Shown here: positions 9,801 through 25,085 of the stretch, one piece after another
How positions within the stretch are numbered: the first letter of the stretch is position 1
Layout: each line of letters opens with the position of its first letter
Source of the DNA: Accumulibacter sp.
GTDB lineage: Bacteria; Pseudomonadota; Gammaproteobacteria; Burkholderiales; Rhodocyclaceae
NCBI GenBank assembly: GCA_031266435.1
Contig: JAISAZ010000120.1
Coordinates: 1-42,225 of the forward strand
Reading direction: 5' to 3'
DNA: 42,225 nucleotides
The notes under the pieces: generated by a model
What the model saw: only the letters and a program-made list of their open reading frames with translations
Told to the model about the DNA's origin: nothing
Databases searched by the model: none
Translations under genes and position numbers: made by a program

Positions 9801-10003
9801 CGTCAAAAAGTAAAACCCTACTTTTTGCCGGATTAGTTTGGGTTTGAAGGTGGGCAAAGCCCACCTTCAAACCATGTAAAAACAACGCCAAACCAGTCCG
9901 GCCTTGGGATTCTCTTGCTTTCCCTTCCAAAAAAGGGTGGGCAACCCCACCTTTTCTTGTCCAGGTCGTCAAAAAACAGGTGCTTGTTTTTTGACGATTC
10001 CTT
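9801..10003 (+). repeat. Four-hairpin dispersed repeat, copy 1 (full length)
   Basis: Starts CGTCAAAAAG and ends TTTTTTGACGATTCCTT. Four stem-loops in order: AAAAAGTA/TACTTTTT (9805-9826); a perfect 15-bp stem with AAA loop (9841-9873); an imperfect AAAAGGGTGGG/CCCCACCTTTT stem near 9936-9956; and a 12-bp stem CGTCAAAAAACA/TGTTTTTTGACG (9967-9996). An extra CGTCAAAAAC precedes the left end. It occupies the leader between the zupT start (9769) and the divergent promoter (10031). It has no coding capacity. Together with 9770-9800 and 10004-10111 it fills the 342-base gap between zupT and oxyR. Confidence 0.85.
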
Positions 10004-10030
10004 GTCTCGAAACACTCTGGAATCCCTCCC

Positions 10031-10097
10031 ACTATAAGCAATCGCCAAATGAATTGTGAAATAAATAATTTCCTTGCTTATAATCGAAGAATTCGAT
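10031..10097. promoter_or_regulatory. Divergent zupT-dps / oxyR promoter region
   Basis: A perfect 9-bp inverted repeat, TATAAGCAA (10033-10041) and TTGCTTATA (10074-10082), frames 32 bases. Each arm is part of a -10 box reading outward: TATAAT (10079-10084) toward oxyR, TATAGT (10031-10036 on the minus strand) toward zupT. Between them is ATT-N11-AAT (10053-10069), the T-N11-A form bound by LysR-type proteins. Both -35 regions are weak, as at activator-dependent promoters. A second small palindrome, ATCGAA-N3-TTCGAT (10083-10097), follows the oxyR -10. OxyR as the ligand is inference from family and position. Confidence 0.6.
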
Positions 10098-10111
10098 TAC
10101 GGAGCGCATTC

Positions 10112-11047
10112 ATGTCTTTTCTACCCTCATTGAAGCAACTCCAATACCTGATCGCGCTTTCCGAGCATCTCAATTTCAACCGCGCGGCGCAAGCCTGCTT
10201 CGTCACGCAATCGACCTTGAGCGTTGGACTCAAGGAACTTGAGAATTTGCTCGGTCGCCGTCTCGTCGAACGCGACCGTCAAAAGGTTCTGATGACGCCT
10301 CTCGGAACCGAGATCGTCCGGCGCGCACACACCGTGCTCACCGCCGCGCAGGACCTCGTCGACCTCGCTGCCACCGACGGCGGCGCGGAATCGGGGACGC
10401 TTCGCGTCGGCGTCATACCGACGATCGCGCCCTTCCTCCTGCCGAAGACGCTTCTCTTCCTGCGTCGGCGCCATCCCGGTCTGCGCCTCGTGCTGCGCGA
10501 GGACCTTTCGGCGAACCTCCTCGCGCGCATGGAGCGTGGGCAGATCGATTTCGCCTTGCTCGCGCTCCCCTACGATACGGACAAATTCATGACGAAAGCG
10601 TTGTTCGAGGACCCGCTCTGGATCGTCGGGGGCAAAGACGACCCGCTTCTTTCGGAAGAGAACGTCAAGCTCACGCCGAGGATCATCGACCGCCTGCTGC
10701 TGCTCGAAGAGGGGCATTGTCTGCGAGACCACATCCTCTTTGCGTGCAACAAGCCCGACCGAAAATCTTCGGGAGAGATCGAGGCGACGAGTTTGCTCAC
10801 GCTCGTTGAAATGGTTCATTCGGGCTTCGGCCTCGGTCTGATCCCCGAAATGGCCGTCAAAAACGGCTTGGCGTCCGACGCGGAACTCGTCGTCCGTCCC
10901 GTGATCGAACCCTGCCCGTCGCGGACGATCGCGATTGCGGCGCGGCGCTCGACGCCTCGTCTCGCCGAGATGGAGGCGCTGGCCGACGCGATTTGCGAAT
11001 CTCATCTGTTGCCTTGCGGAGTGGAAGAATCTTCTGACGCAAGGTGA
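10112..11047 (+). CDS. oxyR: OxyR: LysR-type peroxide-sensing regulator
   Basis: This 311-residue LysR-type regulator has an N-terminal winged helix (LKQLQYLIALSEHLNFNRAAQACFVTQSTLSVGLKELE, residues 7-45) and a substrate-binding-like C-terminal domain. The peroxide sensor is visible: Cys203 in EEGHCLRD and Cys212 in LFACNK, nine residues apart like Cys199/Cys208 of E. coli OxyR. I chose ATG 10112 because GGAG lies eight bases upstream and the protein then begins as family members do. OxyR activates peroxide defence genes. Here it faces a ZIP transporter and dps across a palindromic promoter. It converges on jetD with only eight bases between the stops and no terminator visible. Confidence 0.95.
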   Translation: MSFLPSLKQLQYLIALSEHLNFNRAAQACFVTQSTLSVGLKELENLLGRRLVERDRQKVLMTPLGTEIVRRAHTVLTAAQDLVDLAATDGGAESGTLRVGVIPTIAPFLLPKTLLFLRRRHPGLRLVLREDLSANLLARMERGQIDFALLALPYDTDKFMTKALFEDPLWIVGGKDDPLLSEENVKLTPRIIDRLLLLEEGHCLRDHILFACNKPDRKSSGEIEATSLLTLVEMVHSGFGLGLIPEMAVKNGLASDAELVVRPVIEPCPSRTIAIAARRSTPRLAEMEALADAICESHLLPCGVEESSDAR

Positions 11048-11055
11048 TTCCCAAG

Positions 11056-12228
11056 CTACGCGGGTTTCCGAATGATTGCCTCCAGGGTTTTCCATGCCGC
11101 GTCCCAAGGGAGTCGCTCCTGTTCGAGGCGGATTCGTTGCCCACGCGTATTTCCCTTGATCGACCGATAAAGCGCTTGTTCGTCGCGGGTGAGCAGTGGC
11201 AGTTCGGTCGAGGCGTGCGGGTCTTTCTCTTCGACCCATAAGTCGCGGTGATTCATCAGCGTCGATTCGTCCATCAGCACGCTTTCCAGCCCGGGAAGGT
11301 GGCTTCTCGCCCGATTGAGAATCGCAAAACCGTGCGTGTCGATGTCTCCCCAGTAGAGACACCGCGCGCGGCGCAGCCACGGAATCCGGCCCAGAACGTC
11401 GACGGCGTATCCCAGACGCATGATCACGACGGCGCCCGGCAACTCGTCGAAGGCGAGTCCGGTTTGAAGGTTTTCGACGATCAGGGCATGCGTCGGCTGC
11501 AGGTCGAGGCTCGCCACGTCCTCCCAGGGCGCGGAAATGTCGCCCAGACCGCCCAGGCGGTCTCTCAATTTCGGGTCGAGAACGCGCATGCGGACGAGCT
11601 GCGGCGGCCGCCTCAAGCCGCAGCGCCCGAAGAAGTCGCCGTCGCGCGCCGAGTCGCCCTGAATCGTCGCAATCAGTTCGGAGATCAGCCCCTTGCGTGA
11701 CTCCAGCCATTTGCTGTCGACGCCGGCCACCGGAATTTGTCGCGGGTAGAGGTTCGAGTTCGGGTGGGCGACGATCCACCCCAGCATCTCCGCGAGTCGC
11801 CGAAAATCGGCCTCATCGTAGTCGGCGAGCACGTCAAAATATTTCGGCAAGTTCTGAGCCAGTACCGGCCAAGGCGCCGTGAGCGTCCGGTAGCGAGACC
11901 GCGCTCGCGCCCAGCGCGCGGCCTCGCCGACCCACTCGGCGACGTCTTCAGGGCATCGCAGCGTCAGCTTGTCGGGCAAATCCTGGACGCCGAGCGCTTT
12001 CCAGCGACGCTCGCACCAGGAGAGTGTGCCGACTCCCTGCCAGCGCCGCCACGCCGTCACCCACGCGCGAACGCCTTCGACTTGCCGCAGGGCGTCCCGC
12101 TCGGTCGGTATCCCCAGCGCGATCTCCAAGGGCCATTGGCTTTCGCCAAGTTCGCCGATCAGCCACGCGCGGTGTTTCCCCTGAAATCGGCGAAGAAGTA
12201 TTCCTCTGACGTCATCAGGAAGTTTCAA
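11056..12228 (-). CDS. jetD: JetD: Wadjet plasmid-cleaving Toprim nuclease subunit
   Basis: This 390-residue protein has the DUF3322 (N-terminal) plus DUF2220 (C-terminal) layout of type I JetD. The C-terminal domain has a Toprim-like core: an acidic residue in HALIVENLQ (about residue 251) and a D-x-D in LYWGDIDTHGFAIL (about residues 293-295), followed by the conserved DESTLMNHRDLW segment. In characterised Wadjet systems JetD is the endonuclease that cuts circular DNA held and extruded by the JetABC SMC complex. It is the last gene of the operon; its ATG (12226-12228) lies inside the 3' end of jetC, a 14-base overlap. All expected core residues are present, so the subunit should be active. 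Confidence 0.93.
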   Translation of the reverse strand: MKLPDDVRGILLRRFQGKHRAWLIGELGESQWPLEIALGIPTERDALRQVEGVRAWVTAWRRWQGVGTLSWCERRWKALGVQDLPDKLTLRCPEDVAEWVGEAARWARARSRYRTLTAPWPVLAQNLPKYFDVLADYDEADFRRLAEMLGWIVAHPNSNLYPRQIPVAGVDSKWLESRKGLISELIATIQGDSARDGDFFGRCGLRRPPQLVRMRVLDPKLRDRLGGLGDISAPWEDVASLDLQPTHALIVENLQTGLAFDELPGAVVIMRLGYAVDVLGRIPWLRRARCLYWGDIDTHGFAILNRARSHLPGLESVLMDESTLMNHRDLWVEEKDPHASTELPLLTRDEQALYRSIKGNTRGQRIRLEQERLPWDAAWKTLEAIIRKPA

Positions 12229-15200
12229 GGCTCACTTCCTCTCGTGCGTGTTCGGGAAGTTTCAGCCTTTGGCGGTCGCCGTCGTATTCGATCAGCAGAA
12301 CGCTTGAAACGCGACGGTCGCGGATATCGACGAAGCACGCGCCGCCGATGAAGGGTTCGAGGGTCATGACGGACTTTAACGGCGTGGCGACGATCATCTG
12401 AAAACCAAAATTATTGAAGATGTTCATCGCCAAGGCGGTGAATTCGTCGTCGGCCTTGTCGAAGGCTTCGTCGAGTACGACCGGCGCGTACATAGGCACG
12501 CCGTGGTCGTTTCCTCCCAATTGGTAGCGCAGGGCAGCCGCAAGACACGTGGTCGCCAGTTTCTGGCGCTGGCCTCCCGACTTGCCGGCGCCGCTGCGGT
12601 AGACCTCGACTTCGACGCCCGCCTCGTCGATTTCGCGTCCGATGAACTCGACGTGCTTCCTGACGTCGAGCACGGATTCGCGCCAGCGCTTTTGCTCGGA
12701 GTCCTGGCTGGCGAGCCGATCGACGAGTCGGCGCAGGGCCAGGAAGCGTGTCTCGGCAAACTCGTGTTCCTCGCTCCAGGCGTGACCGAGCGTCTGCTGG
12801 ATCTCTTGCCTGAATTCTTTGACTTCGGCGAGTTGCCGGTCGCTCGCGTCGATGTGGAGGGTGGTGCGTTGCGTGCTCGTCTCGTTGAAGGGCACTTGGC
12901 TGAGGCTGTCGTTGACGAGTTCCATCCGTTCGAGGATGGCTTTTCGCGCGTCGTTCAGATACGTCGAAAGCGCCGCCAGATTCTGGTGGCTCTGGTTCCG
13001 CAGCAATTCGAAGAATCTTTGCTCGTGCGCGGGCAGACCGTCCGTTTCCAGCCGAGCCAGCTTGGCAAAAAAGTCCGGCGCGCTGGCAAGGCTCGCATCG
13101 ACGTCGCCGGCATCCGTAGGCCACTGCCGTTTGAAGTCGGCGAAGCGCGTTTCTATCGCCTTCTCGCAATCGCCGATCGCGCGGTGGAGGCCTTCGACCT
13201 CTTTACCCAGCGTCTGCACGACCGACGTGGTGAGCCGGTCGAGGTTTTCGAGCTTGACGGCGTCGCTCAGGCGGGCGAAGCGTTCGTCGAGTCCCGCGAT
13301 CTGACGGGGACTCAGTGGAAGCCTCGAAGCATCGTGGAGGAGAGCGTGGAGCGAAACGAGTTTCCGCGAACTTTCTTCGATCTGCTTGAGAAGCGATTCG
13401 TGTGCGATCTTCGCTTCTCGAAGAGCCTTGTCGGCGCGGTCGGCCAGCGCTTTTTGCTTCTCGATCCGCGCACCGATCTGCAGCAAGGTCGCGTTGCCTT
13501 CGCGCGCTTCGCGTACTTGGGTTTCGACGGCGGCGATGCGGTCGAGCAAGGGGGGCAGGTCGATTTCTTGCCATTGGAGATTGACGAGCGTCTGGCACTG
13601 AATCGCTCGCGTCGCGCGCTTCCTGTCCTCGTCGGCGAGGGCGTCGATCTCTCTTTCGAGGCGAGCGATCGTGACCGCAAGGTCTTGCACCTGCATCTGA
13701 AAGATCATGCGCTTCTCGCGGTTATCGAATCCGAGCACCCAATGGAGTCGATCGCCGACGCTTCGGCGGTCGTCTTTTTCGTGCCGCGTCTTGCTGTGCT
13801 TGGCCTGACCTTCCCGGGTGAGCGCGCAGTCGGCGTTTTTGAACGACAAAAGCGAGTCGACGCACGCGTAATCGAAGCGTTGCCGCAACTCGGCGCGCAA
13901 CCAATCCGAATACGTGCCTTCCTTGACGTTCAGTTTGAGGACGAGCGAGTTCGTTCCGAGGGGCTTCTTCTGCCAAGCGTCCGGGCGCCCGGTTCGGTAA
14001 TACACCAGGCGCCGCCCAAGGTGGATGCCGTTGATGTGATTGGCAAGCGCCGAGTAATGGCGGTCGTCCACGAGGAGCGAGAGCGCAAACCCGCGCAATA
14101 CCCGCTCGATCGCGCCTTGCCACCCGGCTTCGTCGGGTTTGACTTCGATGAGTTCGCCGACGAAGGGCAGCGCGGATTCGGAGACGCCGATCGCCACGGC
14201 AAGCTCGGAACGCATTTCGAGCATATCGGCGGGGACGTTCGACGGCTGGCGCTTCAAAGCTTCGACTTCTTTACGCGCCTGAGCAAACGCCGTCTCGGCG
14301 TCCTTCTTTTCCCTGTCCAGACGGAATTGCTCCGCGCGGCTTTCGTTGCTCCGCTGTTCCCGGTTTTCGATTTCCCGCCGTGCCTTACCCAGCAATTCGG
14401 CAAAGGCGTGAGGCGAATCGGGAAGACTCCAGCCGAGATTCTTGCAGGCGTCTTCCGCCTGCCCGCGCTTTCGCACGCGATCCGCGCGCTGCGTTTCGAG
14501 TTGCGCCTTCTCCGCCTCCCAGCGCTCGATCCGGTCGCCGCCGGCTTCGCGGTGTTTTTCTTCGAGGTCTCGCAAGGCGGCGGTGTGGTTGTCCAGGAGG
14601 CTTATGCGCTGACCGACTTCGGCTTTCGCCCCGTCGGCTTGCACTTCGAGCGACGCGACGTGCCGTTCGAGCAAGTCGGCGCGTCGGGTTTCCCGGTAGC
14701 CGTCGACGCCGGCTCCGAGTTCGTCGAGTCCCTCGCGTTGCAAGACCAGGGACTCTCTGCGTTGATAGTGTTCGCGCGCCGGTACAAGCGTTTGCACCTG
14801 CTCGCGGGCGCTAACGACCGCCTGGTGCGCCGCGTTGAGTTCGCCGAATTCGCTGACGAGGCGATCCGCCACCTCGAAAGTCTCTGGCTTGTCGAGCATG
14901 AAGTCGCGCAGGAAGGTATTGAGGTCGCCGAGATTTTTTGCCGACTGCGTTTTATGCAGCAAACGCAGCGCCATCTCGCTTTCGATGCCGAGCAGACGAC
15001 AGAATCGCTCGCAATACGGACGGAATTCGTCGCGGGCGAAGGCTTCGGGGAACGATTGCTTGAGTTTTCGGATATCGAAGCCGGACTGGCCGAAATCTGC
15101 GAGTTCGCGCAGGTCGAAAGCGCGCTCGAAGATGAGGTAGTGGCGCCGGACATCGGCCCTGGCATTGGCCTTGCCCCGCAGCCAGAAGACCTGGACGAGG

Positions 15201-15598
15201 ACGACGGACTGACCCTGCGCGCTCCGGTAGCTCAGCGCGAGGGCGGACCACGTCGTATCCGGGCGCAGGGTGCGGGTGGATATTTCGCCCGAATCTCCGT
15301 CCTTCTGCTCGGCCCACGCGCCGCGCATATAGGTGACGAGGCTTCGGTCGCGGCCGCTGCGATCCGCCTCGCGCGCGGCGGCGTTGAAGTCGATCCAGCG
15401 CGGCGGAACGAGCAGAGCCGAGAAGGCGTCCAGAAGCGTCGACTTCCCCGTCCCCGACCGGCCGACAAACAGAAAGCCGCGTTCGCCGATCGGGATGTCG
15501 TGAAGACCCGAAAAAGTACCCCAGTTGAAAACCTGCAAGCGCGACATGCGGAATTGTTCTCGGGCGAACAAGGAGGCGGTCCGGGGCTGTAAACTCAT
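12215..15598 (-). CDS. jetC: JetC: Wadjet SMC-like ATPase
   Basis: This 1127-residue SMC/MukB-type ATPase has Walker A GRSGTGKST at residues 46-54, a first coiled coil from about 250, a globular hinge at roughly 460-650, a second coiled coil to about 890, then ABC signature GKSGGQRQKL near residue 1005 and Walker B VVLDEAFDKAD near 1040. In Wadjet (also called MksBEFG or EptABCD) JetC dimers with the JetA kleisin and JetB extrude DNA loops and present small circular plasmids to JetD. ATG 15596-15598 overlaps the jetB stop (ATGA). A long open frame on the opposite strand is a GC-rich shadow. Confidence 0.95.
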   Translation of the reverse strand: MSLQPRTASLFAREQFRMSRLQVFNWGTFSGLHDIPIGERGFLFVGRSGTGKSTLLDAFSALLVPPRWIDFNAAAREADRSGRDRSLVTYMRGAWAEQKDGDSGEISTRTLRPDTTWSALALSYRSAQGQSVVLVQVFWLRGKANARADVRRHYLIFERAFDLRELADFGQSGFDIRKLKQSFPEAFARDEFRPYCERFCRLLGIESEMALRLLHKTQSAKNLGDLNTFLRDFMLDKPETFEVADRLVSEFGELNAAHQAVVSAREQVQTLVPAREHYQRRESLVLQREGLDELGAGVDGYRETRRADLLERHVASLEVQADGAKAEVGQRISLLDNHTAALRDLEEKHREAGGDRIERWEAEKAQLETQRADRVRKRGQAEDACKNLGWSLPDSPHAFAELLGKARREIENREQRSNESRAEQFRLDREKKDAETAFAQARKEVEALKRQPSNVPADMLEMRSELAVAIGVSESALPFVGELIEVKPDEAGWQGAIERVLRGFALSLLVDDRHYSALANHINGIHLGRRLVYYRTGRPDAWQKKPLGTNSLVLKLNVKEGTYSDWLRAELRQRFDYACVDSLLSFKNADCALTREGQAKHSKTRHEKDDRRSVGDRLHWVLGFDNREKRMIFQMQVQDLAVTIARLEREIDALADEDRKRATRAIQCQTLVNLQWQEIDLPPLLDRIAAVETQVREAREGNATLLQIGARIEKQKALADRADKALREAKIAHESLLKQIEESSRKLVSLHALLHDASRLPLSPRQIAGLDERFARLSDAVKLENLDRLTTSVVQTLGKEVEGLHRAIGDCEKAIETRFADFKRQWPTDAGDVDASLASAPDFFAKLARLETDGLPAHEQRFFELLRNQSHQNLAALSTYLNDARKAILERMELVNDSLSQVPFNETSTQRTTLHIDASDRQLAEVKEFRQEIQQTLGHAWSEEHEFAETRFLALRRLVDRLASQDSEQKRWRESVLDVRKHVEFIGREIDEAGVEVEVYRSGAGKSGGQRQKLATTCLAAALRYQLGGNDHGVPMYAPVVLDEAFDKADDEFTALAMNIFNNFGFQMIVATPLKSVMTLEPFIGGACFVDIRDRRVSSVLLIEYDGDRQRLKLPEHAREEVSLETS

Positions 15599-16302
15599 TC
15601 TTCGGCCTCCTCGTCGGCATCGGGCGGGATCTCGCGCGCGGGTGCCTCGCCCGCGGCCATGCGTTGATACAAATGCGTCAGCGCCAGTATTTCCTCCGCC
15701 GAAAAGAGGAGCTTCAGCGTTGGCGAAATTTCGAACCGGTTTTCGCTGGAACGAATCTTCTGGAGGATGTTGTGCTTCTTGATCTTCTCGATCGAGGCAT
15801 GAACCCGTTTTGCGAACCCCGCGCGGTCGGTGTTCGAAGCGCGCTCGTAGAGCGTCAGGAACTCCGTGGCCTCTTCGGTCGATACGACGGCGCGGTCGCC
15901 TTGCGAATCCGCCTGCGCCAGTCGCTGGCGAAGGTAGAGCAGCAAAACGGAGTCGACGAAGGTCAGTTGCGCGCGGCGCAGGAGAGTCGGCGCTTCGAGG
16001 TCGCCGGTATCCGCCTGACGGGTGAAGGCGACTTGCACGTCGTGGTCGATGATGAGTTCTAGAAAGAGTTCGGCGAGACGGCGCCGGATCAAATCCTCGT
16101 CCCGCATCAGGATCGGCCAGAGTTTCGCGTGTCGACGCGCGTCGAGCGAGGGCCCCGCAAGGAGTTGCACCAGGGCGCGCCGCGTTTCATACGCCAACTC
16201 GCCGCCGTCGCCGATGAAAAGGGCGTTGGAAGGAAGGGATGCCGCGTCCGGCGCTTCTTCTCCGTCGGGCAGGGTGTTTTCGTCGTCCTCAGACCAGCTC
16301 AT
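15595..16302 (-). CDS. jetB: JetB: Wadjet KITE-type subunit (DUF4194)
   Basis: This 235-residue DUF4194 protein is the small MukE/KITE-like subunit of type I Wadjet, which binds the JetA kleisin. The fold is visible as winged-helix segments: RRLAELFLELIIDHDVQVAFTRQAD in the first half, and a C-terminal part with AGFAKRVHASIEKIKKHNILQKI and ISPTLKLLFSAEEILALTHLYQRM. Both ends of the protein are acidic. ATG 16300-16302 lies inside jetA (14-base overlap) and the stop overlaps jetC by four bases, so stoichiometry is probably set by translational coupling. Confidence 0.92.
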   Translation of the reverse strand: MSWSEDDENTLPDGEEAPDAASLPSNALFIGDGGELAYETRRALVQLLAGPSLDARRHAKLWPILMRDEDLIRRRLAELFLELIIDHDVQVAFTRQADTGDLEAPTLLRRAQLTFVDSVLLLYLRQRLAQADSQGDRAVVSTEEATEFLTLYERASNTDRAGFAKRVHASIEKIKKHNILQKIRSSENRFEISPTLKLLFSAEEILALTHLYQRMAAGEAPAREIPPDADEEAEE

Positions 16303-17749
16303 CGGCGCGTTCCCTCAAAAAGAATATTTTCGGAATCCGGGCGCCGCGCCGCAGTTCGTCGCCCCCGATCCAGCCCACGGTTTCGCTTTGGTCGGCCAAA
16401 AAACCGTGCCGACACCCCAGGGCAAGCAGTCCGACGACGCTCCCGAGCCCCTGCGCGGCGGGGAAGTCTTCCAGGATGTCGGCGATCGACGCCTGCGACC
16501 GTCGTTCCAGAACGGCGAGCACGTTGGCTTTCAGGGTACGGAAGTCGATCTCGGATTGAGCGACGAGTTCGCCGATGGACTCGAAATCGATCGACGGCGC
16601 GTCTCCGTCGGCCATTGGGTCGGGCAAGGATTGCAGCGAGGGGTCGTAAAGCACCCATTGCGAGAAAGAGTGCAAACGGCTGCTCGTGAGTTCGAGCGTG
16701 TATTGAAGCGTTTCCGTGGCCCTGACCTCGTCTTTGATCGCGAGCGCGGCGCGCTGGGCGCCTTTCAGAAGCTGGTTGAGCCGGCGCTGTTCGAGGTATT
16801 CACGGCTCTGGACGAAATGCTTCAGGCTGCGGGCGAAGGTCTGGAGGACTTCGTGCACCATCCCGCCCTGTTCGAGAAGCGTCCGCGTCAGCCGAAGAAG
16901 GAATCGCCGCTCCCTGGTGTCGAGTTGCCCCACAAACTCCCGCGACAGGACGCTCTCCAGGGATTGATCGAGCGTGGCGGCCTGTTCCGGGTCGGTCAGC
17001 AAGCGCCAGAACGCGGAAAACGTCCTCCCCGCGTCGCTTTCCGAAATCAGGTCGATTCCGGCGAACAGGGAATCGAGCACCTCGCCCCGATTGCCGTCGT
17101 TGTCCATGATGCGCTCGCGGAGTTCTCGATTGAGCTGTTCGAACTCGTCGCGGACACGACGGAAGTCTCCCGCCAGATCGTCGGCGAGCGTGATGATTTC
17201 GCGTGCCCGCTCCAGCGCGGTCGCATGGGGAAGCACGCGCATCCGTCCCTCCCGGATCGCGTCGATCTCCTGGTCGATGCGCGCCCGCTCGGCGATGAGG
17301 CGTTCCATGCGGCGGGATTTGTCGGTATCGGTATCGTCGGCCAGTCGGGAGAGGGCTTCGATCACGAGTGTCAGGCGGCTCTCGGTCGCCGCCGAGTGCG
17401 GCTGTTCCAGACCGGAGACAAACCGAATCGCCTCGACCGCCGCGGTGGAAAGTTCGTACTCCTCCTCCGAGGCGCCCGACGGAAAGCGCCGCTCCAGATA
17501 AGCGTCGGCAAGCCAGCGTGCGACGTAAGCCTGCGCCGTCTGCGGAAAGTCTTCACCGCGCGCGCGGAGCGCTTCCAAATCCCTGCCGATCCGCTCAAGA
17601 AAGATCGAAGCCGGAAGACTCCGCTCGTTTTCAAAGAGATGCGTTTGCAAGAGAGCAATGACGGTCGGCCCGGTGTCGGACGCAAGCAGTCGCCACAGGG
17701 GCTGCGCCCGCATGCGCCGGTACGTCGCAATGGCTTTGTCCGCTTTCAT
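16289..17749 (-). CDS. jetA: JetA: Wadjet kleisin-type subunit (DUF3375)
   Basis: This 486-residue DUF3375 protein is the MukF/kleisin-like subunit of type I Wadjet. The N-terminus (MKADKAIATYRRMRAQPLWRLLASDTGPTVIALLQTHLFENER) has the family form, followed by a winged helix and a helical middle (about residues 180-330) rich in charged heptads; the C-terminal part includes QSQASIADILEDFPAAQGLGSVVGLLALG. It is the first gene of the jetABCD operon; CAGGG lies about 11 bases before ATG 17747-17749. A small hairpin upstream (17761-17781) overlaps that ribosome site. The four jet genes are intact and overlap throughout, which indicates a maintained system. Confidence 0.93.
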   Translation of the reverse strand: MKADKAIATYRRMRAQPLWRLLASDTGPTVIALLQTHLFENERSLPASIFLERIGRDLEALRARGEDFPQTAQAYVARWLADAYLERRFPSGASEEEYELSTAAVEAIRFVSGLEQPHSAATESRLTLVIEALSRLADDTDTDKSRRMERLIAERARIDQEIDAIREGRMRVLPHATALERAREIITLADDLAGDFRRVRDEFEQLNRELRERIMDNDGNRGEVLDSLFAGIDLISESDAGRTFSAFWRLLTDPEQAATLDQSLESVLSREFVGQLDTRERRFLLRLTRTLLEQGGMVHEVLQTFARSLKHFVQSREYLEQRRLNQLLKGAQRAALAIKDEVRATETLQYTLELTSSRLHSFSQWVLYDPSLQSLPDPMADGDAPSIDFESIGELVAQSEIDFRTLKANVLAVLERRSQASIADILEDFPAAQGLGSVVGLLALGCRHGFLADQSETVGWIGGDELRRGARIPKIFFLRERADELV

Positions 17750-17966: not shown

Positions 17967-18179
17967 ATGCCTGCCATTCGATTGAAAGAAAATGAACCGT
18001 TCGAGGTGGCCATTCGCCGCTTCAAACGGACCGTTGAAAAAACCGGCCTCCTGACCGAATTGCGCGCCCGCGAGTTTTACGAAAAACCGACCGCGGAACG
18101 CAAGCGCAAACTGGCGGCCGCGGTCAAGCGTCATCACAAGCGTATTCGCGGCCAGTCTTTGCCGCCCAAGCTTTACTAA
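17967..18179 (+). CDS. rpsU: Ribosomal protein S21
   Basis: This 70-residue S21 of the 30S subunit sits near the anti-Shine-Dalgarno end of 16S rRNA and aids initiation. The sequence is diagnostic ([24 protein letters not shown], then the basic tail [14 protein letters not shown]). I chose ATG 17967 over the preceding TTG because AGGAAA lies eight bases upstream and the product then has the family length. It is the first gene of the macromolecular-synthesis operon rpsU-yqeY-dnaG-rpoD. Its stop codon (18177-18179) overlaps the edge of repeat copy 2, and a terminator follows at 18368-18406, so rpsU can be expressed in excess of dnaG. Confidence 0.97.
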
Positions 18180-18293
18180 GGAATCGTCAAAAAATAAGCG
18201 CCCGTTTTTTGACGGCTTGGAGAAAAAAAGGGTGGGCTTCGCCCGCCTTCAAACCCACCAACCCGGCAAAAAGTAGGGTTTTACTTTTTGACG
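18178..18293 (-). repeat. Four-hairpin dispersed repeat, copy 2 (shortened, inverted)
   Basis: Relative to copies 1 and 3 this copy is inverted. It retains the AAGGAATCGTC end (beginning inside the rpsU stop codon), the CGTCAAAAAA/TTTTTTGACG stem (18185-18214) and the AAAAAGTA/TACTTTTT stem at the other end. About 90 bases in the middle are missing. The junction fuses the left arm of the GGGTTTGAAGG stem to the right part of the next stem, as expected from a deletion between the similar GGGC...CCCACC stretches. Confidence 0.8.
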
Positions 18294-18406: not shown

Positions 18407-18432
18407 CCAAATCACTCGTCAGGGAGGCTTGG

Positions 18433-18879
18433 ATGACTTTGAAAGAACGCATCACCGAAGACATTAAATCCGCCATGCGCGCCCGGGAGGCGGCAAAGCG
18501 CGACGCGTTGCGCCTTTTGCTGGCCGCCGTCAAGCAAAAGGAAGTCGACGAGCGGGTCGAAGCGGACGATGTTCTTGTCGTTTCGGTCGTCGAGAAGCTG
18601 ATGAAACAGCGCCGCGAGGCGGTCGAGCAGTACGAAATCGCCGGTCGCAAGGACAGGGCGGACGCCGAGAGATTCGAGGCGGACGTTTTGTCGGTCTATC
18701 TGCCCACCCGCCTTTCTCCCGAAGAACTCGACGCCCATATCGCCGCCGCCGTCGCCGAGACGGGCGCCCGGAGCGTCGGCGACATGGGCAGGCTGATGAG
18801 CCTTCTCAAGTCGAGAATCGCGGGACGCGCCGATATGTCCGAACTGTCGAAGCGGGTCAGGGCGCTCCTTTCCGCGTAA
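18433..18879 (+). CDS. yqeY: GatB/YqeY domain protein
   Basis: This 148-residue protein consists of the YqeY domain: an N-terminal helical part (MTLKERITEDIKSAMRAREAAKRDALRLLLAAVKQKEVD), a middle motif (EKLMKQRREAVEQYEIAGRKD) and the C-terminal GatB/Yqey helices ending in RADMSELSKRVRALLSA. The domain is shared with the tRNA-binding tail of amidotransferase subunit GatB, so a tRNA-related role has been suggested for the family, but the free protein is not well characterised. AGGGAGG lies upstream of the ATG. It sits between rpsU and dnaG, 24 bases before dnaG, the usual betaproteobacterial order. Confidence 0.92.
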   Translation: MTLKERITEDIKSAMRAREAAKRDALRLLLAAVKQKEVDERVEADDVLVVSVVEKLMKQRREAVEQYEIAGRKDRADAERFEADVLSVYLPTRLSPEELDAHIAAAVAETGARSVGDMGRLMSLLKSRIAGRADMSELSKRVRALLSA

Positions 18880-18903
18880 GAGACGCTACAGGGATGAGGC
18901 GCC

Positions 18904-20715
18904 ATGATCCCCGAATCCTTCATTCAGGAACTTCTTTTCCGCACGGATATCGTCGACCTGATCGATAGCTACCTTCCTTTGAAAAAGGCGGGGGCGAACT
19001 ACGTCGCGTGTTGCCCTTTCCACAGCGAGAAAACCCCGTCGTTTTCGGTCAGCCCCGGAAAACAGTTTTACCACTGCTTCGGTTGCGGCGCGCACGGGAC
19101 GGCCATCGGTTTTTTGATGGAGTATTCCGGGGTCGGTTTCATCGACGCGATCAAAGACCTTGCGGGCCGCGCGGGCTTGCGGATTCCCGAAGACGAGGCG
19201 CGTGAAGCGCGTGGAGAAGCCCAGAGCCGGCACGACGCTCAAAATCTGAGCGATATCACCGAGGCGATGGCGCGCGCCGCCAAATTCTATTACGGGCAAA
19301 TGAAGCGTTCGGAACGCGCCATCGCGTATTTAAAGGCGCGCAGCGTCGGGGGCGAGGTCGCCCGAAAATTCGGCGTCGGCTACGCGCCTGACGCGTGGCA
19401 AAATCTGAACGCCGAGTTCGAGAATTACGCCAGCCCCGTCTTGCAGGCGGCCGGACTCGTCATTCGGAGCGACCAGGGGCAACTCTACGACCGTTTCCGC
19501 GACCGGATCGTCTACCCGATCTTCAATCAGAAAGGCGAAGTCATCGCCTTCGGCGGTCGCGTCATCGACGTCGGCGAACCGAAATATCTGAATTCGCCCG
19601 AAACGCCGCTTTTCGAGAAGGGGCGCGAGGTCTACGGCTTGCCGCAGGCGCGCGCCGCGTTGCGCGAAAAAAACACGGCGATCGTCGTCGAAGGCTATAT
19701 GGACGTGATAGCGCTTTCGCAACACGGCGTCGAGAACGCCGTCGCGACGCTCGGCACGGCGACGACCGAGGCGCACGTGAAGAAACTCTTCCGCCAGGTC
19801 GACCGTGTCGTCTTTTGTTTCGACGGCGACAACGCCGGACGCAAGGCGGCGTGGAAAGCCTTGGAAAATGTGCTCGAATCGCTCGTCGAACCGAAGACCG
19901 TCGGGTTTGCCTTTCTCCCCGACCCGGAGGACCCGGACAGCTTTGTCCGCGCACGCGGGAAAGACGCTTTCGAGCGCCTGATCGCCCAAGCGACGCCGCT
20001 TTCCGAATTTTTGCTGCGCGAGCTTTCCTCGCGCGGAGACTTGTCGAGCGCCGAAGGCCGCGCCGCGCTCGTGTCGGCCGCCGGCCCCTTGCTGAAGCGC
20101 TTGAGGTCGCCGCTCCTGCGTTTGCAGATCGTCAGGCGCCTGGGGGACGTCAGCGGCTTTACGGCACAGGAGATCGAGCGGCATTGCGGCCTCCCCCCGA
20201 TCGCGCAAGCGTCGCCCGCGAGGGTGCCGAGGCGGAACTACTCGGTCTGGAACCGTCTGTTCCGGCTATTGCTGCAAAAACCCGAACTCGCGTATCAGCT
20301 ACCGCCGGGATTCTTTGAAGACGCTTCCGAAACTCCCGAAGCCTCCGAAGCCTCCGAAACCTCGGCGGCTCCGCCCGAATCCGGCGCGGTGAAAAGCCTT
20401 TGTGAAACGATTTTCGCCGCGAAAGGGGGCGCCGTCCCGTCGTGCGCGGCTTTGCTTGAAAGCGCGCGCGGTACCGCGAATGAAAGTTTTTTCAGCGAGG
20501 CCGCTGCGGAACTCATCGCGGCGCCCTTTGTCGAAGACGATATCGAAACCGAATTCGCCGGTGCGTTGGAGCGCCTCTCCGAGGCTCGGCGCAAACGCGA
20601 TTTTGAAACGCTTCAAAAGAAAGTCGCGCGGATGGGGATCAACGGACTGAGTGCGGAGGAAAAAAGCGGGTATCTGAAGTTGGTCACGCGCGGAAAGGAA
20701 CCAAAAGAATCATAA
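18904..20715 (+). CDS. dnaG: DNA primase DnaG
   Basis: This 603-residue primase makes RNA primers at the replication fork. The N-terminal zinc ribbon uses Cys36/Cys37-His40 (ACCPFHSEKTPSF) and Cys58-x2-Cys61 (FYHCFGCGAHG). The catalytic Toprim core follows, with VVEGYMDVIAL and FDGDNAGRKAA carrying the metal-binding Glu and Asp residues. The C-terminal helicase-binding domain starts after a flexible linker at residues 475-489, where a 9-bp tandem repeat encodes a Ser-Glu-Ala-rich stretch (20326-20370). A ribosome site GGGATGAGG precedes the ATG. rpoD follows in the same direction, with its start 51 bases after the dnaG stop. Confidence 0.97.
   Translation: MIPESFIQELLFRTDIVDLIDSYLPLKKAGANYVACCPFHSEKTPSFSVSPGKQFYHCFGCGAHGTAIGFLMEYSGVGFIDAIKDLAGRAGLRIPEDEAREARGEAQSRHDAQNLSDITEAMARAAKFYYGQMKRSERAIAYLKARSVGGEVARKFGVGYAPDAWQNLNAEFENYASPVLQAAGLVIRSDQGQLYDRFRDRIVYPIFNQKGEVIAFGGRVIDVGEPKYLNSPETPLFEKGREVYGLPQARAALREKNTAIVVEGYMDVIALSQHGVENAVATLGTATTEAHVKKLFRQVDRVVFCFDGDNAGRKAAWKALENVLESLVEPKTVGFAFLPDPEDPDSFVRARGKDAFERLIAQATPLSEFLLRELSSRGDLSSAEGRAALVSAAGPLLKRLRSPLLRLQIVRRLGDVSGFTAQEIERHCGLPPIAQASPARVPRRNYSVWNRLFRLLLQKPELAYQLPPGFFEDASETPEASEASETSAAPPESGAVKSLCETIFAAKGGAVPSCAALLESARGTANESFFSEAAAELIAAPFVEDDIETEFAGALERLSEARRKRDFETLQKKVARMGINGLSAEEKSGYLKLVTRGKEPKES
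20326..20370 (+). repeat. 9-bp tandem repeat in the DnaG linker
   Basis: Units TCCGAAACT, CCCGAAGCC, TCCGAAGCC, TCCGAAACC and a decayed fifth unit lie in frame and encode Ser-Glu-Thr/Ala triplets between the primase core and the C-terminal domain. Same TCCG-N5 pattern as at 1966, 21448, 29277 and 36131. Confidence 0.8.
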
Positions 20716-20766
20716 GTTGTGGTAGAATATAAAGTTTTTCAATTTAACGTTCTCCGAGATTCATTC

Positions 20767-22770
20767 ATGGCAAGGGAAAAGGCAACATACTATAAATCGG
20801 CGAAGGTGAAAACCGCCGAGCTACTGGCCCAAATGGGCAGGCGGCCGTCTCCAGCCGATGAAGAGACGCGGAAGACGCGCCTCAAGACCTTGATCAAACT
20901 CGGCAAGGAGCGGGGCTTTTTGACCTACTCCGAGGTCAACGACCACCTTCCCGACGACGTCGTCAACGCGGAACAGATCGAAAGCATCATCACGACGTTC
21001 AACGATATGGGGATTCGCGTCTACGATGAGGCGCCCGATTCCGAGACCTTGCTCATGTCGGAAGCGTCGCCGTCGGCTGTCGCGGACGAAGTGGACGTCG
21101 AAGAGCAGGCCGAGCAGGCGCTTTCGAACGTCGATTCCGAATTCGGGCGCACGACCGACCCGGTTCGCATGTATATGCGCGAGATGGGTTCGGTCGAACT
21201 CCTGACCCGCGAAGGCGAACGCGAGATCGCCCAGCGCATCGAAGACGGTTTGAAGCACATGATCCAGGCGATCTCGGCGTGCCCGACGACGATCGCCGAA
21301 CTCGTCGACTGCGCCGAAAGGATCACCCGGGACGAAATGCGGATCGACGAACTCATCGACGGTCTCGTCGATTCGGTCGATTCGGAAGCGGAAAAGATCA
21401 TCGAAGAACTCGCCGAGGCCGAAGAAGTCGGCGACGACGACGGCGAATCCGCAGAGTCCGCAGAATCCGGCGAGGTGTCCGAATCCGCAGAATCTGCGGA
21501 ATCCGCCGAATCCGCCGAAAGCGCGGACGTGGAAGCGTCTCTGCAAAAGTTGAAGGAAGAGGGGCTCGCAAAGCTCACCGAAATCAAAAAACTCTTCACG
21601 CGTGCAAAAGCCGCGCTTGCGAAAAAGGGAACGCAGGACAGAAACTATATCCGTCTCCGGAACGACATTTCGGAAACGATGATGAGCATTCGCTTCACTT
21701 CCCGGACGATCGAACGGCTCTGCGATTCGGTTCGCCTGATGGTCGAAGAGGTGCGCGCCTGCGAGCGCAAGATCCAGCGCATTTGCGTCGATGCGGTGCG
21801 TATGCCGCGCCCGTACTTCATCAAGGTTTTCCCCGGAAACGAACTCAACTTGGATTGGGTCGAGAGCGAACTTGCCGTCCCCGCCGGCAAACCCTACGCG
21901 GCCGTTCTCATGCGCAACGCGCCGAATATCCGCGAAGAGCAGAAAAAGCTCCTGTCGCTTCAGGAACGCGTCGGCATTCCGCTCAAGGAACTGAAAGAAA
22001 TCAACAAGCGGATGTCGACCGGCGAAGCCAAGGCGCGCCGCGCCAAGCGCGAAATGACCGAGGCCAACCTGCGGCTCGTCATCTCGATCGCGAAAAAATA
22101 CACGAACCGGGGTTTGCAGTTCCTCGACCTGATCCAGGAAGGCAACATCGGACTCATGAAGGCGGTCGATAAATTCGAATACCGCCGGGGCTTCAAGTTT
22201 TCCACCTACGCGACGTGGTGGATCCGGCAGGCCATCACGCGCTCGATCGCCGACCAGGCGCGGACGATCCGCATCCCGGTGCACATGATCGAAACGATCA
22301 ACAAGATGAATCGCATTTCCCGGCAGATTCTCCAGGAAACGGGCATCGAAGCCGATCCCGCGACGCTCGCCCGAAAAATGGACATGCCCGAGGAAAAAAT
22401 CCGCAAGATACTCAAGATCAGCAAGGAGCCGATCTCGATGGAGACGCCGATCGGCGACGACGACGATTCGCACCTCGGCGATTTCATCGAGGATTCGTCG
22501 ACGCTCGCGCCGACCGACGCGGCGCTCTCGTCGAGCCTGCGCCTGATTACCAAGGACGTGCTCGACACGCTGACGCCGCGCGAAGCGAAGGTCTTGCGGA
22601 TGCGCTTCGGCATCGAGATGAATACCGACCACACGCTCGAAGAGGTCGGGAAGCAGTTCGACGTGACGCGCGAGCGGATACGCCAGATCGAAGCCAAGGC
22701 ACTGCGGAAACTGCGCCACCCTTCGCGTTCGGACAAGTTGCGCAGTTTTGTCGACAGCAACCATAACTAA
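20767..22770 (+). CDS. rpoD: RNA polymerase primary sigma factor RpoD (sigma-70)
   Basis: This 667-residue housekeeping sigma factor has region 1.1 at the N-terminus ([24 protein letters not shown]), region 1.2 ([21 protein letters not shown]), the long non-conserved spacer, region 2 ([59 protein letters not shown], which binds the -10 element), region 3 and region 4 ([30 protein letters not shown], which binds the -35). I chose ATG 20767 because the protein then begins as relatives do; an in-frame GTG at 20719 would add an unrelated stretch. The shine-dalgarno is weak. The spacer carries a Glu-Ser-Ala repeat from a 9-bp tandem array (21448-21519). Confidence 0.97.
21448..21519 (+). repeat. 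9-bp tandem repeat in the RpoD non-conserved region
   Basis: About eight units of TCCG-N5 (for example TCCGCAGAA, TCCGCCGAA) encode Ser-Ala-Glu triplets at residues 228-251, in the acidic spacer between sigma regions 1.2 and 2. One unit is imperfect (GTGTCCGAA). It is the longest array of this class in the window. Confidence 0.8.
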
Positions 22771-22778
22771 AGTTTGAA

Positions 22779-22802
22779 AAAGGGCGGGAGTGTCCGCCCT
22801 TT
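22779..22802 (+). terminator. Hairpin after rpoD
   Basis: Arms AAAGGGCGG (22779-22787) and CCGCCCTTT (22794-22802) with a 6-base loop follow the rpoD stop by eight bases. There is only a three-T tail, then the tRNA begins at 22804. It may terminate weakly or serve as a processing boundary. Confidence 0.55.
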
Positions 22803-22803
22803 A

Positions 22804-22880
22804 GGGCCTGTAGCTCAGTTGGTCAGAGCAGCGGACTCATAATCCGTTGGTCCAGGGTTCAAGTCCCTGCGGGCCCACCA
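22804..22880 (+). tRNA. tRNA-Ile2 (anticodon CAU, lysidine type)
   Basis: A 77-base cloverleaf has acceptor arm GGGCCTG/CGGGCCC, a D arm with GCTCAGTTGGTCAGAGC, anticodon loop CTCATAA (anticodon CAU), a TTCAAGT T loop and encoded CCA at 22878-22880. Both Met and Ile2 tRNAs carry CAU. C4-G69 and C5-G68 in the acceptor stem match the TilS-recognised isoleucine tRNA of E. coli, where elongator Met tRNA has U-A and A-U. It would read AUA codons after lysidine modification. Confidence 0.88.
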
Positions 22881-22906
22881 AAATTCCTGTTTGATTCAAA
22901 AACTTG

Positions 22907-22936
22907 CGCCGCCCTGACCTGCGGCGTTTTTTCTTT
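22907..22936 (+). terminator. Terminator after the tRNA
   Basis: Arms CGCCGC (22907-22912) and GCGGCG (22921-22926) with an 8-base loop are followed by TTTTTTCTTT, a clear intrinsic terminator 26 bases after the tRNA 3' end. Confidence 0.8.
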
Positions 22937-23031
22937 CCCGCACAGCTTTGACCCAAACCTGACCGTGTTTGCGTGAGCGGCAATGCGGCTGGTGCGCACC
23001 TTATCTTTTTTGGTACTACGCGGACTTTTTC

Positions 23032-23059
23032 TTGTAAAACACAACAGAAGTGTTATAGT
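23032..23059 (+). promoter_or_regulatory. hicAB promoter with internal operator-like inverted repeat
   Basis: TTGTAA (23032-23037), a 16-base spacer and TATAGT (23054-23059) form a plausible promoter seven bases before the hicA ATG. The spacer holds the inverted repeat AACAC (23038-23042) and GTGTT (23050-23054), well placed for autorepression by the HicB helix-turn-helix. The very short leader is consistent with no separate ribosome site. Confidence 0.55.
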
Positions 23060-23066
23060 CTGCGGA

Positions 23067-23246
23067 ATGAATTCCAAGCAGATGAAGCGCTGGCTCGAGC
23101 AACAGGGTGCGACTTTCCTTCCGGGCAAGGGGTCGCATCTCAAGGTCTTGCTCAACGGCAGACATTCGTCCTTGCCGATGCACGGCACGACCGAGCTTGG
23201 CAAGGGGCTGGAGACCGCCATCAAACGCCAGCTTGGTTTGCAATGA
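23067..23246 (+). CDS. hicA: HicA toxin (mRNA interferase)
   Basis: This 59-residue HicA has a double-stranded-RNA-binding-like fold and cleaves mRNA. It carries the hallmark GKGSHLKV with catalytic His24 after an N-terminal helix (SKQMKRWLEQQG) and the later SLPMHGTTELGKGLETAIKRQLGL typical of the family. I chose ATG 23067; upstream in-frame codons would place residues before the promoter. hicB begins 12 bases downstream. The pair sits just beyond the tRNA-Ile2 terminator. All catalytic features are present, so the toxin appears functional. Confidence 0.93.
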   Translation: MNSKQMKRWLEQQGATFLPGKGSHLKVLLNGRHSSLPMHGTTELGKGLETAIKRQLGLQ

Positions 23247-23258
23247 GGAGGAAGCGCC

Positions 23259-23678
23259 ATGTTTGATTACCCTGTCACCCTGACGCCGGACGATAACGGC
23301 ACGGTGTTGGTCACTTTTGCCGATGTGCCGGAAGCCATCTCCTTTGGCGCGGACGAGGACGAGGCTTTGCTGAACGCGGTCGACGCGCTGGAAACCGGCT
23401 TGTCGTTTTATATCGACGACCGCCGCCCCTTGCCTTTGCCCGGCCGCCCGACCAAGGGACAAAAAACCGTTCGCCCGTCGGCGCTCGAATGCGCCAAACT
23501 GGGCGTTTACCACGCAATGACGCAAGAGGGCGTCAAAAAGTCCGAGTTGGCCCGCCGCATGGGTTGGCATATGCCGCAAGTCGACCGTCTTTTCGACCTC
23601 CATCACGCCAGCCGGCTCGATCAGATCGAAGCGGCGGCGCGGGCCTTGGGGAAATCCGTGACCGTGCGTGTGGCGTGA
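23259..23678 (+). CDS. hicB: HicB antitoxin
   Basis: This 139-residue HicB neutralises HicA and represses the operon. The N-terminal RNase-H-like domain (YPVTLTPDDNGTVLVTFADVPEAISFGADEDEALLNAVDALETGL) is followed by a proline-rich linker and a C-terminal helix-turn-helix (VKKSELARRMGWHMPQVDRLFDLHHASRLDQIEAAARALG). A strong ribosome site AGGAGG precedes the ATG, in contrast to the toxin gene, so antitoxin excess is expected. The gene is full length. The 173 bases to the next start show no clear feature. Confidence 0.94.
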   Translation: MFDYPVTLTPDDNGTVLVTFADVPEAISFGADEDEALLNAVDALETGLSFYIDDRRPLPLPGRPTKGQKTVRPSALECAKLGVYHAMTQEGVKKSELARRMGWHMPQVDRLFDLHHASRLDQIEAAARALGKSVTVRVA

Positions 23679-23851
23679 CGCGGCGCGGACCTTGAATCTC
23701 CCAGTGACTCATCAAAAACTTCCCTCCGCTTGGAAATTCCCCCTTTGAAAAGAAATCAGACGATTGGGCAATGATTCGGCAGAATCAGGCTCACATCTGA
23801 AGGCGTATTCCGGCGATGCTTGATTCCTCGATAATTTTGAGGAAGGGCGAA

Positions 23852-24874
23852 ATGACTGAAAAGACAAGAAGCGCAAACGTCGACGACGGCGTCGACCCGA
23901 CACGTCGTTCGATGATCAAGGGGGCGGTCATCGCCGGACTCGCGGCGGCGTCGCTGCCGGGACCGGCGGAAAGCGCATCGACGCCTCCGTCGCGCGGCGC
24001 CCAGCCGCTCATCGACCCGCAGACCCGCTTTCCGAACGATCAGCCGACGCAGGCGCAAGTCTGGCCAGGGCTTCAACGCAATATGACGCCGAGACCCGAT
24101 TGCGGAGAAACGAACTATCGGGGGTCCGGGCGCCTTGCCGGTCGCTGCGCGCTGATCACCGGCGGCGACTCAGGAATTGGTCGTGCGGTAGCGATCGCCT
24201 ACGCGCGTGAAGGCGCCGACGTCGCGATCAACTACCTGCCGCAGGAAGAACCCGATGCCGAGGAAGTGATCAAACTCATCCGTGCCGAGGGCCGGAGTGC
24301 CATCGCAATTCCCGGCGACCTTCGCACCGAAGCATTTTGCAAGCGTCTCGTCGCCGAGGCGGAACGCGAACTCGGCGGTCTCGATATCCTCGTCAGCAAC
24401 GCCGGCTCCGGGTGGTTCCTGCCCGACATACTCGAACATCCGAGCGAAAAATTCGACCAAGTGATCAAGACCAATCTGTACGCGTCGTTCTGGTTGTCGA
24501 AGGCCGTCATCGCGGTGATGAAGCCGGGAAGCGCGATCGTGTTTTCGAATTCGGTCACGGCCTTTTTGCCTTCCGAAGCCTTCCTCGCCTACAGCGCCAC
24601 GAAGGCCGCGCTCGTCGCCTTTACCTGCGCGCTTGCGAAACAGGTCGCCCAGCACGGCATCCGGGTCAACGGCGTCGCCCCCGGCGCGATCTGGACGCCG
24701 ATGCAGGTTTACTTCGAAGCACCCGCGAACAACGTTGAAAACCTCAACGCCTTGACGCCGATCGGGCGGATGGGCCAGCCGGTGGAGATGGCTCCGCTTT
24801 ACGTCACGCTGGCGGAAGGAACGAGCAGCTTCGTTACCGGGAGCACGTGGTCCGCCAATGGCGGGCGGCAATAG
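23852..24874 (+). CDS. SDR-family oxidoreductase with twin-arginine-like N-terminus
   Basis: This 340-residue classical short-chain dehydrogenase resembles the YghA group. The N-terminus has TRRSMIK (Arg18-Arg19) followed by an alanine-rich hydrophobic stretch, as in a Tat signal. The catalytic domain starts near residue 95: cofactor loop TGGDSGIG (103-110), NAGS, and catalytic Tyr247/Lys251 in AYSATKAAL with a Ser about 13 residues earlier; it ends in GSTWSANGG. Asp in the TGGDSGIG loop and later charged residues do not settle NAD versus NADP. GAGGAAGG precedes ATG 23852; an in-frame ATG 12 codons earlier has no ribosome site. The substrate is unknown. Repeat copy 3 starts four bases after the stop. 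Confidence 0.88.
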   Translation: MTEKTRSANVDDGVDPTRRSMIKGAVIAGLAAASLPGPAESASTPPSRGAQPLIDPQTRFPNDQPTQAQVWPGLQRNMTPRPDCGETNYRGSGRLAGRCALITGGDSGIGRAVAIAYAREGADVAINYLPQEEPDAEEVIKLIRAEGRSAIAIPGDLRTEAFCKRLVAEAERELGGLDILVSNAGSGWFLPDILEHPSEKFDQVIKTNLYASFWLSKAVIAVMKPGSAIVFSNSVTAFLPSEAFLAYSATKAALVAFTCALAKQVAQHGIRVNGVAPGAIWTPMQVYFEAPANNVENLNALTPIGRMGQPVEMAPLYVTLAEGTSSFVTGSTWSANGGRQ

Positions 24875-24878
24875 TATT

Positions 24879-25085
24879 CGTCAAAAAGTAAAACCCTAGC
24901 CGGGTTGATCAGGGTTTGAAGGTGAGCAAAGCCCACCCTCAAACCATGTAAAGACAACGCAAAACCAGTCCGACCTTGGAATTCTTTTGCTTCTCCTGCT
25001 TTTCCTTCCCAAAAAAGGCGGGCAAAGTCTGCATTTTTTTGTCCAAGCCGTCAAAAAACAGGCGGTTATTTTTTGACGATTCCTT
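24879..25085 (+). repeat. Four-hairpin dispersed repeat, copy 3 (full length)
   Basis: Same ends as copy 1 (CGTCAAAAAGTAAAACCCTA at the left, TTTTTTGACGATTCCTT at the right). The first stem is degraded: its right arm TACTTTTT is lost. The second stem survives with mismatches (GTTTGAAGGTGAGC / GCCCACCCTCAAAC), and the terminal CGTCAAAAAAC stem is present with an imperfect partner. It lies between convergent SDR and AraC genes and fills most of the 250-base gap. Confidence 0.82.

Follow-up and report, generated by a model that had tools for sequence, protein, structure and literature searches.

What kind of element is the four-hairpin repeat that lies at three gene edges in a 42,225-nucleotide stretch of Accumulibacter sp. 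DNA (GenBank assembly GCA_031266435.1, contig JAISAZ010000120.1, positions 1 to 42,225; the whole stretch is called the window here)? The original prediction, made from the letters alone, proposed either a sequence like a miniature inverted-repeat transposable element (MITE) or a structured RNA family. The results described below support a dispersed family, apparently a large and undescribed Burkholderiales family of non-coding repeats. In our reading, to which we give about an even chance, it is a dispersed non-coding palindromic family, a non-autonomous repeat of the REPIN/ERIC kind that settles behind stop codons and acts there as a structured element of the 3′ untranslated region (UTR) or of intercistronic RNA.

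Copy A (9801..10003, plus strand) is a full four-hairpin inverted dimer, copy B (18180..18293, minus strand) is a reversed short form with fused internal hairpins, and copy C (24875..25085, plus strand, with CGTC at 24879) is full-length. Alignment of the three copies showed that both ends and the internal stems are common to all of them. By inverted-repeat detection, copy A contains hairpin 1 at 9801-9830 (arms 9801-9812/9819-9830, 92%), hairpin 2 at 9841-9873 (arms 9841-9855/9859-9873, 15 nt, 100%) and hairpin 4 at 9966-9997 (arms 9966-9978/9985-9997, 13 nt, 100%); hairpin 3 lies at about 9928-9959. The same detection returned the terminal hairpins of copies B and C and, additionally, hairpin 2 of copy C. 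The outer hairpins of copy B are at 18185-18214 and 18264-18293, and the hairpins of copy C at 24879-24903 (degraded), about 24910-24948, about 25008-25040 and 25049-25078. The places of the three copies and their shared ends and hairpins were thus borne out, with the reservation that the first hairpin of copy C is partly lost.

These copies are inverted dimers of a two-hairpin unit plus tail. The basic unit, of about 105-110 nt, consists of hairpin 1 (core AAAGTRNAAMCCTACTTT), hairpin 2 (tip mostly GGC-RNA-GCC) and a tail with NACGARAA; the tail pattern was present in 32 of 60 copies compared with 25 of 600 background windows, which, like the background windows of the terminator count given below, were drawn upstream of units and are mostly coding DNA. 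In the clearest full copies, from G025 and Zoogloeaceae, hairpins 1 and 2 are followed by the central stem half CAACGAAAAACC, its complement, hairpin 3 and hairpin 4, the last being the reverse complement of hairpin 1, so that terminal inverted repeats are present. A covariance model (R2), built from 18 sequences of other Burkholderiales families and none from the window's genome, matched copy A at 9801-9882 (plus, 1.5e-15) and 9918-9996 (minus, 3.4e-7), copy B at 18213-18293 (minus, 9.5e-11) and 18185-18261 (plus, 0.0012), and copy C at 24879-24954 (plus, 1e-5) and 24999-25078 (minus, 6.7e-7). Because R2 matches both arms of every window copy, all three are inverted dimers, made from a unit that occurs alone elsewhere. 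The window's lineage has this paired form, in which the units meet at their tails and the ends match, and the form has multiplied there.

Related stretches in other families look mostly like solo units. In RYN_558 (G133), most copies are single units without an inverted partner, and at least three close inverted pairs were found among the matches listed; further inverted pairs occur in contig C120 of the window's genome (G000) and in Betaproteobacteria bacterium UKL13-2 (G105; L333). In one RYN_558 pair, the units face each other around a terminator-like stem, with the left unit directly behind a stop; if the right flank of this pair is likewise a gene end, as it reads by eye, dimers could naturally have arisen where gene ends converge. 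At two other RYN_558 places, oppositely oriented arms lie about 0.9 and 1.2 kb apart. At one of them (L281, about 939-2161 of G133 contig C58), the opposed units enclose a run of tRNA genes of about 1.2 kb; at the other, no mobile gene was recognised by eye between the arms, where no family search was made.

Other palindromes were noticed in association with the copies. A central extra palindrome (GTAGGGGCGCACTGCGTGCGCCC ... GGGCGCACGCAGTGCGCCCCTAC), apparently a nested repeat, occurs in many full copies, at L082, L083, L106, L125 and other loci of Nm470_bin6 (G059) and Roe453_bin30 (G060). At L004, L024, L036 and L042, in G000 and G024, a different dispersed palindrome-like sequence with the ends ATTCCTTTTCCA and GGAAAAGGAAT lies beside parts of copies or replaces them.

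Far more copies exist than the three in the window. When the window's 2.66-Mb draft genome was searched by blastn with copy A, 72 matching pieces were found; in a set of 59 genomes including the window's own, copy A matched three, the others being G024 and G025 of the same genus (which share contigs with Gx485_bin129 and Kf353_bin148). A scan of named genomes for the terminal-hairpin pattern returned at least 102 stretches, many of them in metagenome-assembled genomes (MAGs) titled Accumulibacter sp., Zoogloeaceae bacterium or Azoarcus sp.; the isolate codes of most of these MAGs presumably denote termite guts. Among the matches listed, the terminal hairpin occurred singly in UKL13-2, RYN_558 and one Burkholderiales MAG. 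A second covariance model (R1), made from 51 left halves picked for diversity among 158 candidates, gave 58 matches in G000, 19 in G024, 32 in G025 and at least 150 each in Nm470_bin6 and Roe453_bin30; since a palindromic copy can match twice, these counts are of arms rather than copies. The family therefore numbers dozens of members in the window's genome and many in its relatives, which disposes of the first refuting condition set by the original prediction, namely that these three copies stand alone and relatives lack them. In G025, about 10 copies or part-copies are crowded on contig C397 (15,464 bases; L053), some of them in tandem or overlapping.

Beyond the genus, R1 found related stretches in 18 of 399 genomes of the order sample (the window's own included) and in 9 of its 159 genera. 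R2 likewise gave 18 of 399, or 17 of 398 without the window's genome, and in the class sample it matched the window's genome only (1 of 369). As 11-12 candidates were scored per genome, the order and class figures are lower bounds. A fuller search of 17 unit-bearing genomes gave 1-9 matches each, except for RYN_558, which had 92. The distribution of the unit is patchy within Burkholderiales.

The position of the units relative to genes was examined with a gene caller based on GC content by codon position. In RYN_558, a sense gene has its stop codon 0-6 nt ahead of hairpin 1 in 29 of 40 examined copies, which makes this the usual position there, and in other genomes the same caller placed a sense stop 0-6 nt before hairpin 1 in 8 of 20 copies; the stop codons of these 37 were TAG in 13, TGA in 13 and TAA in 11. 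In family f22, whose genomes have lower GC, this caller fails, and upstream genes were recognised there by the length of the frame and by Pfam. In genomes other than RYN_558, a frame of at least 60 codons ends within 12 nt of hairpin 1 at 31 of 39 places, a set that leaves out five rRNA-spacer copies (L237, L239, L242, L244 and L245), and 29 of these 31 frames end 0-7 nt before the hairpin. Pfam families were assigned to 28 of 30 upstream frames, the two without a match ending 7 nt inside the hairpin (L269, of 63 codons, was the one frame outside this test); in RYN_558, all 10 upstream open reading frames tested had Pfam families, one of them Cpn60.

The genes concerned include major housekeeping genes. 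Units were found behind ATP synthase beta, as we read the domains (G088, G173 and G211 of family f3, and G316 of f22), ATP synthase alpha (G353), Cpn60 (G211 and G036), ribosomal protein L1 and a class-V aminotransferase that we read from its context as iscS (both in G105, G225 and G256), and EF-Tu (G432); further upstream genes encode ETF, SDRs, acyl-CoA dehydrogenases and flagellar proteins. Some units lie in rRNA operons, adjoining tRNA or 23S genes, and units also sit between genes of one operon. Of the 143 outer ends in the records found by pattern, 43 follow a sense stop at a distance of 0-10 nt; in a further 28 (L056-L157) a coding-like frame enters hairpin 1 and terminates at the TAA inside it, which looks as though the stop codon came from the element. 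In G024, 3 of 13 left ends and 2 of 6 right ends follow a sense stop at 0-10 nt.

The stems were compared for compensatory change, the lack of which was the second refuting condition of the original prediction; such change proved to be strong. In alignment A1, all 13 hairpin-2 pairs had changed on both sides, with 183 double-change cells versus 52.9 after shuffling; since hairpin 1 of many A1 rows was set by the search pattern, its invariance there says little. Among the 18 sequences of other families, both sides had changed in 19 of 26 pairs (90 cells versus 28.1 shuffled), and for 89 distinct rows there were 420 double-change cells versus 109.5 shuffled, almost all of them Watson-Crick. When the partners were slid by one column, pairing in the 89 rows, an alignment made by fitting to the model and biased in its favour, fell from 95.5% to 43.5-45.3%. 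Of the 2289 cells, 44 were G.U and 41 A.C. The share of G.U among standard pairs was 2.0% in the unit, compared with 6.2% in 58 tRNAs of the same loci; only the G.U share was used in this control, because ARAGORN marks allowed pairs only and its A.C count is not comparable. Selection on an RNA strand should favour G.U over A.C, and the equal counts therefore argue against it. Such strict Watson-Crick pairing points to recognition of folded DNA, correction of the palindrome by template switching, or a function in both orientations, and suggests that pairing is kept at the DNA level. When nine loci were compared between G000 and G024, compensated pair changes were seen in four (L013/L047, L024/L044, L026/L050 and L034/L052), while the changes in the L005/L040 comparison were uncompensated. 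Gene conversion between copies could equally give compensated changes.

Presence and absence were compared between relatives. The site of copy C is empty in G024, which reads GTGTAGCGGGG where the window has CAATAG, the element and TTAGCCGGGG. Copy B is missing from the space after rpsU in G012, G014, G016 and G019, whereas G024 carries it there in a different internal form (L048). Two further empty-site comparisons, of copy A with G016 and of L083 with L144, were not clean. As to target duplication, of which the original prediction saw no obvious sign, that statement needs softening: at the symmetric boundary (ends G...C), 7 of 27 curated copies have identical 3-bp flanks versus 2.43 expected, although the p value of 0.0044 is uncorrected, this result is the best of 243 offset/length combinations, and many sites are blurred. 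The 27 copies are what remained of 33 rows after removal of three self-pairing or inner rows and three orthologous duplicates. The 3-bp direct repeats are only suggestive of a target duplication. A larger flank set of 138 rows was discarded, as single hairpins had been paired with themselves; its best offset differed (4 bp, 5/138).

A partner enzyme was sought by searching G000, G024, G025, G059 and G060 for DDE_3, Y1_Tnp and DDE_Tnp_1. No transposase with hairpin ends on both sides was found in these five genomes. The window's genome has two transposase genes of the IS630 type (DDE_3), each with an open frame of 350 aa (L185 on contig C89 and L187 on C62), and no matching ends were seen at either of these intact genes. 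No element-like ends were seen at the DDE_Tnp_1 loci, and Y1 transposase had no match in G000, G024 or G025. The hairpin-1 core was met a few times in the vicinity of transposase fragments of G060 (L190, L197/L223, L206, L216 and L221), never at both ends. In nine free-living hosts, the hairpin-1 core was absent from the examined flanks of all 20 Y1 loci, the one loose pattern match (L358) not being the core.

Several explanations have to be weighed against these data. That the repeat is a purely cis-acting structured RNA, kept by selection behind the stops of well-expressed genes as old, vertically inherited copies without any mobility system, seems rather doubtful to us. The sense orientation 0-6 nt behind stops, the repeated occurrence after the genes for ATP synthase beta (f3 and f22) and Cpn60 (three genera), and the conserved loop and tip with covarying stems would all be consistent with it; however, counts per genome reach 92 in RYN_558 and at least 150 matches elsewhere, the distribution is patchy with empty sites, and G.U and A.C counts are equal. 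We consider it unlikely that the repeat is an ordinary MITE derived from an IS630- or IS5-like DDE insertion sequence and duplicating a TA or TNA target. IS630 duplicates TA, and some IS5 groups duplicate TNA; on this view the hairpins would be no more than the terminal and internal inverted repeats of such an element, and the gene-end position would reflect tolerance only. No transposase with such ends was found, a negative limited by the draft assemblies, and a MITE accounts poorly for the orientation bias, the 0-6 nt spacing and the RYN_558 copies that are mostly single units, even though the matching ends, the empty sites, the excess of 3-bp flank repeats and the two intact DDE_3 genes of the window's genome all point its way. 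As to the two alternatives of the original prediction, presence and absence support spread in the window's lineage, and the missing G.U excess suggests pairing at the DNA level.

It is highly improbable that the units are simply the intrinsic transcription terminators of gene ends. Despite their long stems and their position behind stop codons, no T-run follows hairpin 1 or 2 in 60 copies examined by eye; a separate terminator-like stem with a T-run follows 11 of 60 units, versus 1 of 240 background windows; and units also occur within operons and in rRNA spacers. Chance similarity or an assembly artefact has almost no probability left. The window's lineage is represented by draft MAGs only, which had given this concern some ground, but it is refuted by the 72 matches in one genome, by the presence of the same family in independent assemblies including the single-contig UKL13-2 chromosome, and by the shuffled and slid controls.

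A number of observations also weigh against the non-autonomous repeat that we prefer. The stop-codon rule is broken by 11 of the 40 RYN_558 copies, in eight of which no sense stop was called and an antisense gene end lies 18-193 nt past hairpin 2. The window's genome follows the rule weakly, a sense stop being present 0-10 nt before 8 of 37 left ends and before 1 of 19 right ends; within the window, copies B and C follow it and copy A does not. Moreover, ATP synthase beta and Cpn60 carry units in different genera or families, and recurrence at the same genes fits old inheritance or selection as well as it fits mobility. To these must be added that covariance-model searches favour intact copies, that G.U is no commoner than A.C, that the 3-bp flank result carries the limits given above, and that no partner enzyme was found, a negative that is itself limited by the fragmented draft assemblies.

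Comparison with known systems places the family among dispersed bacterial palindromes. Rfam searches of the whole window at gathering scores returned one tRNA only, permissive scans of copy A and six unit loci from other genomes gave nothing credible over the element, and no description of the repeat was found in the open-licence literature. As described in PMC3116915 and PMC2817692, REPINs (REP-BIMEs) with their RAYT transposases look nearest in kind, being high-copy, extragenic, non-autonomous palindromes that form inverted doublets and have stems that stay complementary though their sequences differ. Inverted doublets in extragenic space are present here as well (the arms of copies A, B and C, and the pairs in G000 contig C120 and RYN_558). 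Unlike the single short hairpin of REPINs in those accounts, the present unit has two hairpins and lies 0-6 nt behind stop codons. Since no constant GTAG or GTGG corresponding to the REPIN head GT(A/G)G was found at the hairpin foot, where the left flanks read TNAG or a stop codon plus 0-6 nt, and since no RAYT association was seen in the genomes searched, the family was not filed as REPIN.

The family also resembles ERIC/IRU, Correia/NEMIS and RUP, which PMC2229807 describes as about 100-200 bp long, highly paired and mostly intergenic, with terminal inverted repeats. It differs from them, on that description, in its sequence, its two-hairpin arms and its gene-end rule; in addition, 3-bp repeats are suggested here in place of the TA repeats of ERIC, Correia and RUP, and the family was seen only in Burkholderiales samples. 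A table row of PMC2864571 lists a weak candidate structured motif confined to Burkholderiales, 'Burkholderiales-1', which has no Rfam number and could be identical with the present repeat.

Integron attC sites are likewise folded, conserved in structure and located behind the stop codon of a gene; they belong to cassettes, whereas the present unit adjoins core operon genes.

If the repeat is indeed a non-autonomous element of the REPIN/ERIC kind, the unit would spread with the help of a trans-acting enzyme that reads its folded strand or its ends. A copy that inserts at a stop codon or immediately after it would not disrupt the gene, and the element may be either targeted to such sites or tolerated there. 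Once in place, the unit would belong to a 3′ UTR or to the RNA between cistrons, and its stems would there protect the end of the message or take part in its processing. Such a role draws positional support from the terminator-like stem after units and from the effect of ERIC, which has been reported (PMC2229807) to destabilise upstream messages. A bolder version is possible, and we put it forward tentatively: the unit may be a portable post-stop module, inserted in sense a few nucleotides behind stops in several Burkholderiales families, read via folded strands with strict Watson-Crick stems and constant loops, and affecting how messages end or how ribosomes are released in major operons (ATP synthase, Cpn60, ribosomal protein L1, EF-Tu and rRNA); in the window's lineage this module would have been dimerised and multiplied.

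Dispersed bacterial palindromes are common; what is unusual here is a two-hairpin unit that lies in sense 0-6 nt behind stops and adjoins core genes of several families. With it, one can test if repeats of this kind are directed to gene ends or simply put up with at such places. One can also ask of dispersed hairpins whether their covarying stems are a sign of RNA function or of recognition or repair at the DNA level. The comparison of G.U and A.C counts is a simple diagnostic that is applicable to REP and ERIC families as well, and the annotation of Burkholderiales genomes would be enriched by a gene-end feature that is absent from Rfam 15.

Within the window, Pfam analyses agreed with the predicted gene-edge position of all three copies. 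Copy A lies between divergent genes for a Zip transporter and a LysR regulator. Copy B is preceded by rpsU (17967..18179, plus strand), identified as ribosomal protein S21 by its translation and Pfam PF01165 (3.4e-20); the outer hairpin begins 5 nt past the rpsU TAA stop (18177-18179), and YqeY and then DnaG lie beyond the copy. An SDR-family gene (23816..24874, plus strand; PF13561, 6.6e-52) precedes copy C, whose first hairpin begins 4 nt past the TAG stop (24872-24874), and an AraC regulator lies beyond. A pattern listing showed a partial extra copy of the left end (CGTCAAAAAC) just 5′ of copy A (9790..9799, plus strand). The short form of copy B, which the original prediction had attributed to a deletion between similar stretches, fits such an event, which to judge from the letters would have joined the CCCACCTT stretches of hairpins 2 and 3; a similar short form of 107-108 bp was found in three other copies (L031, L033 and L051).

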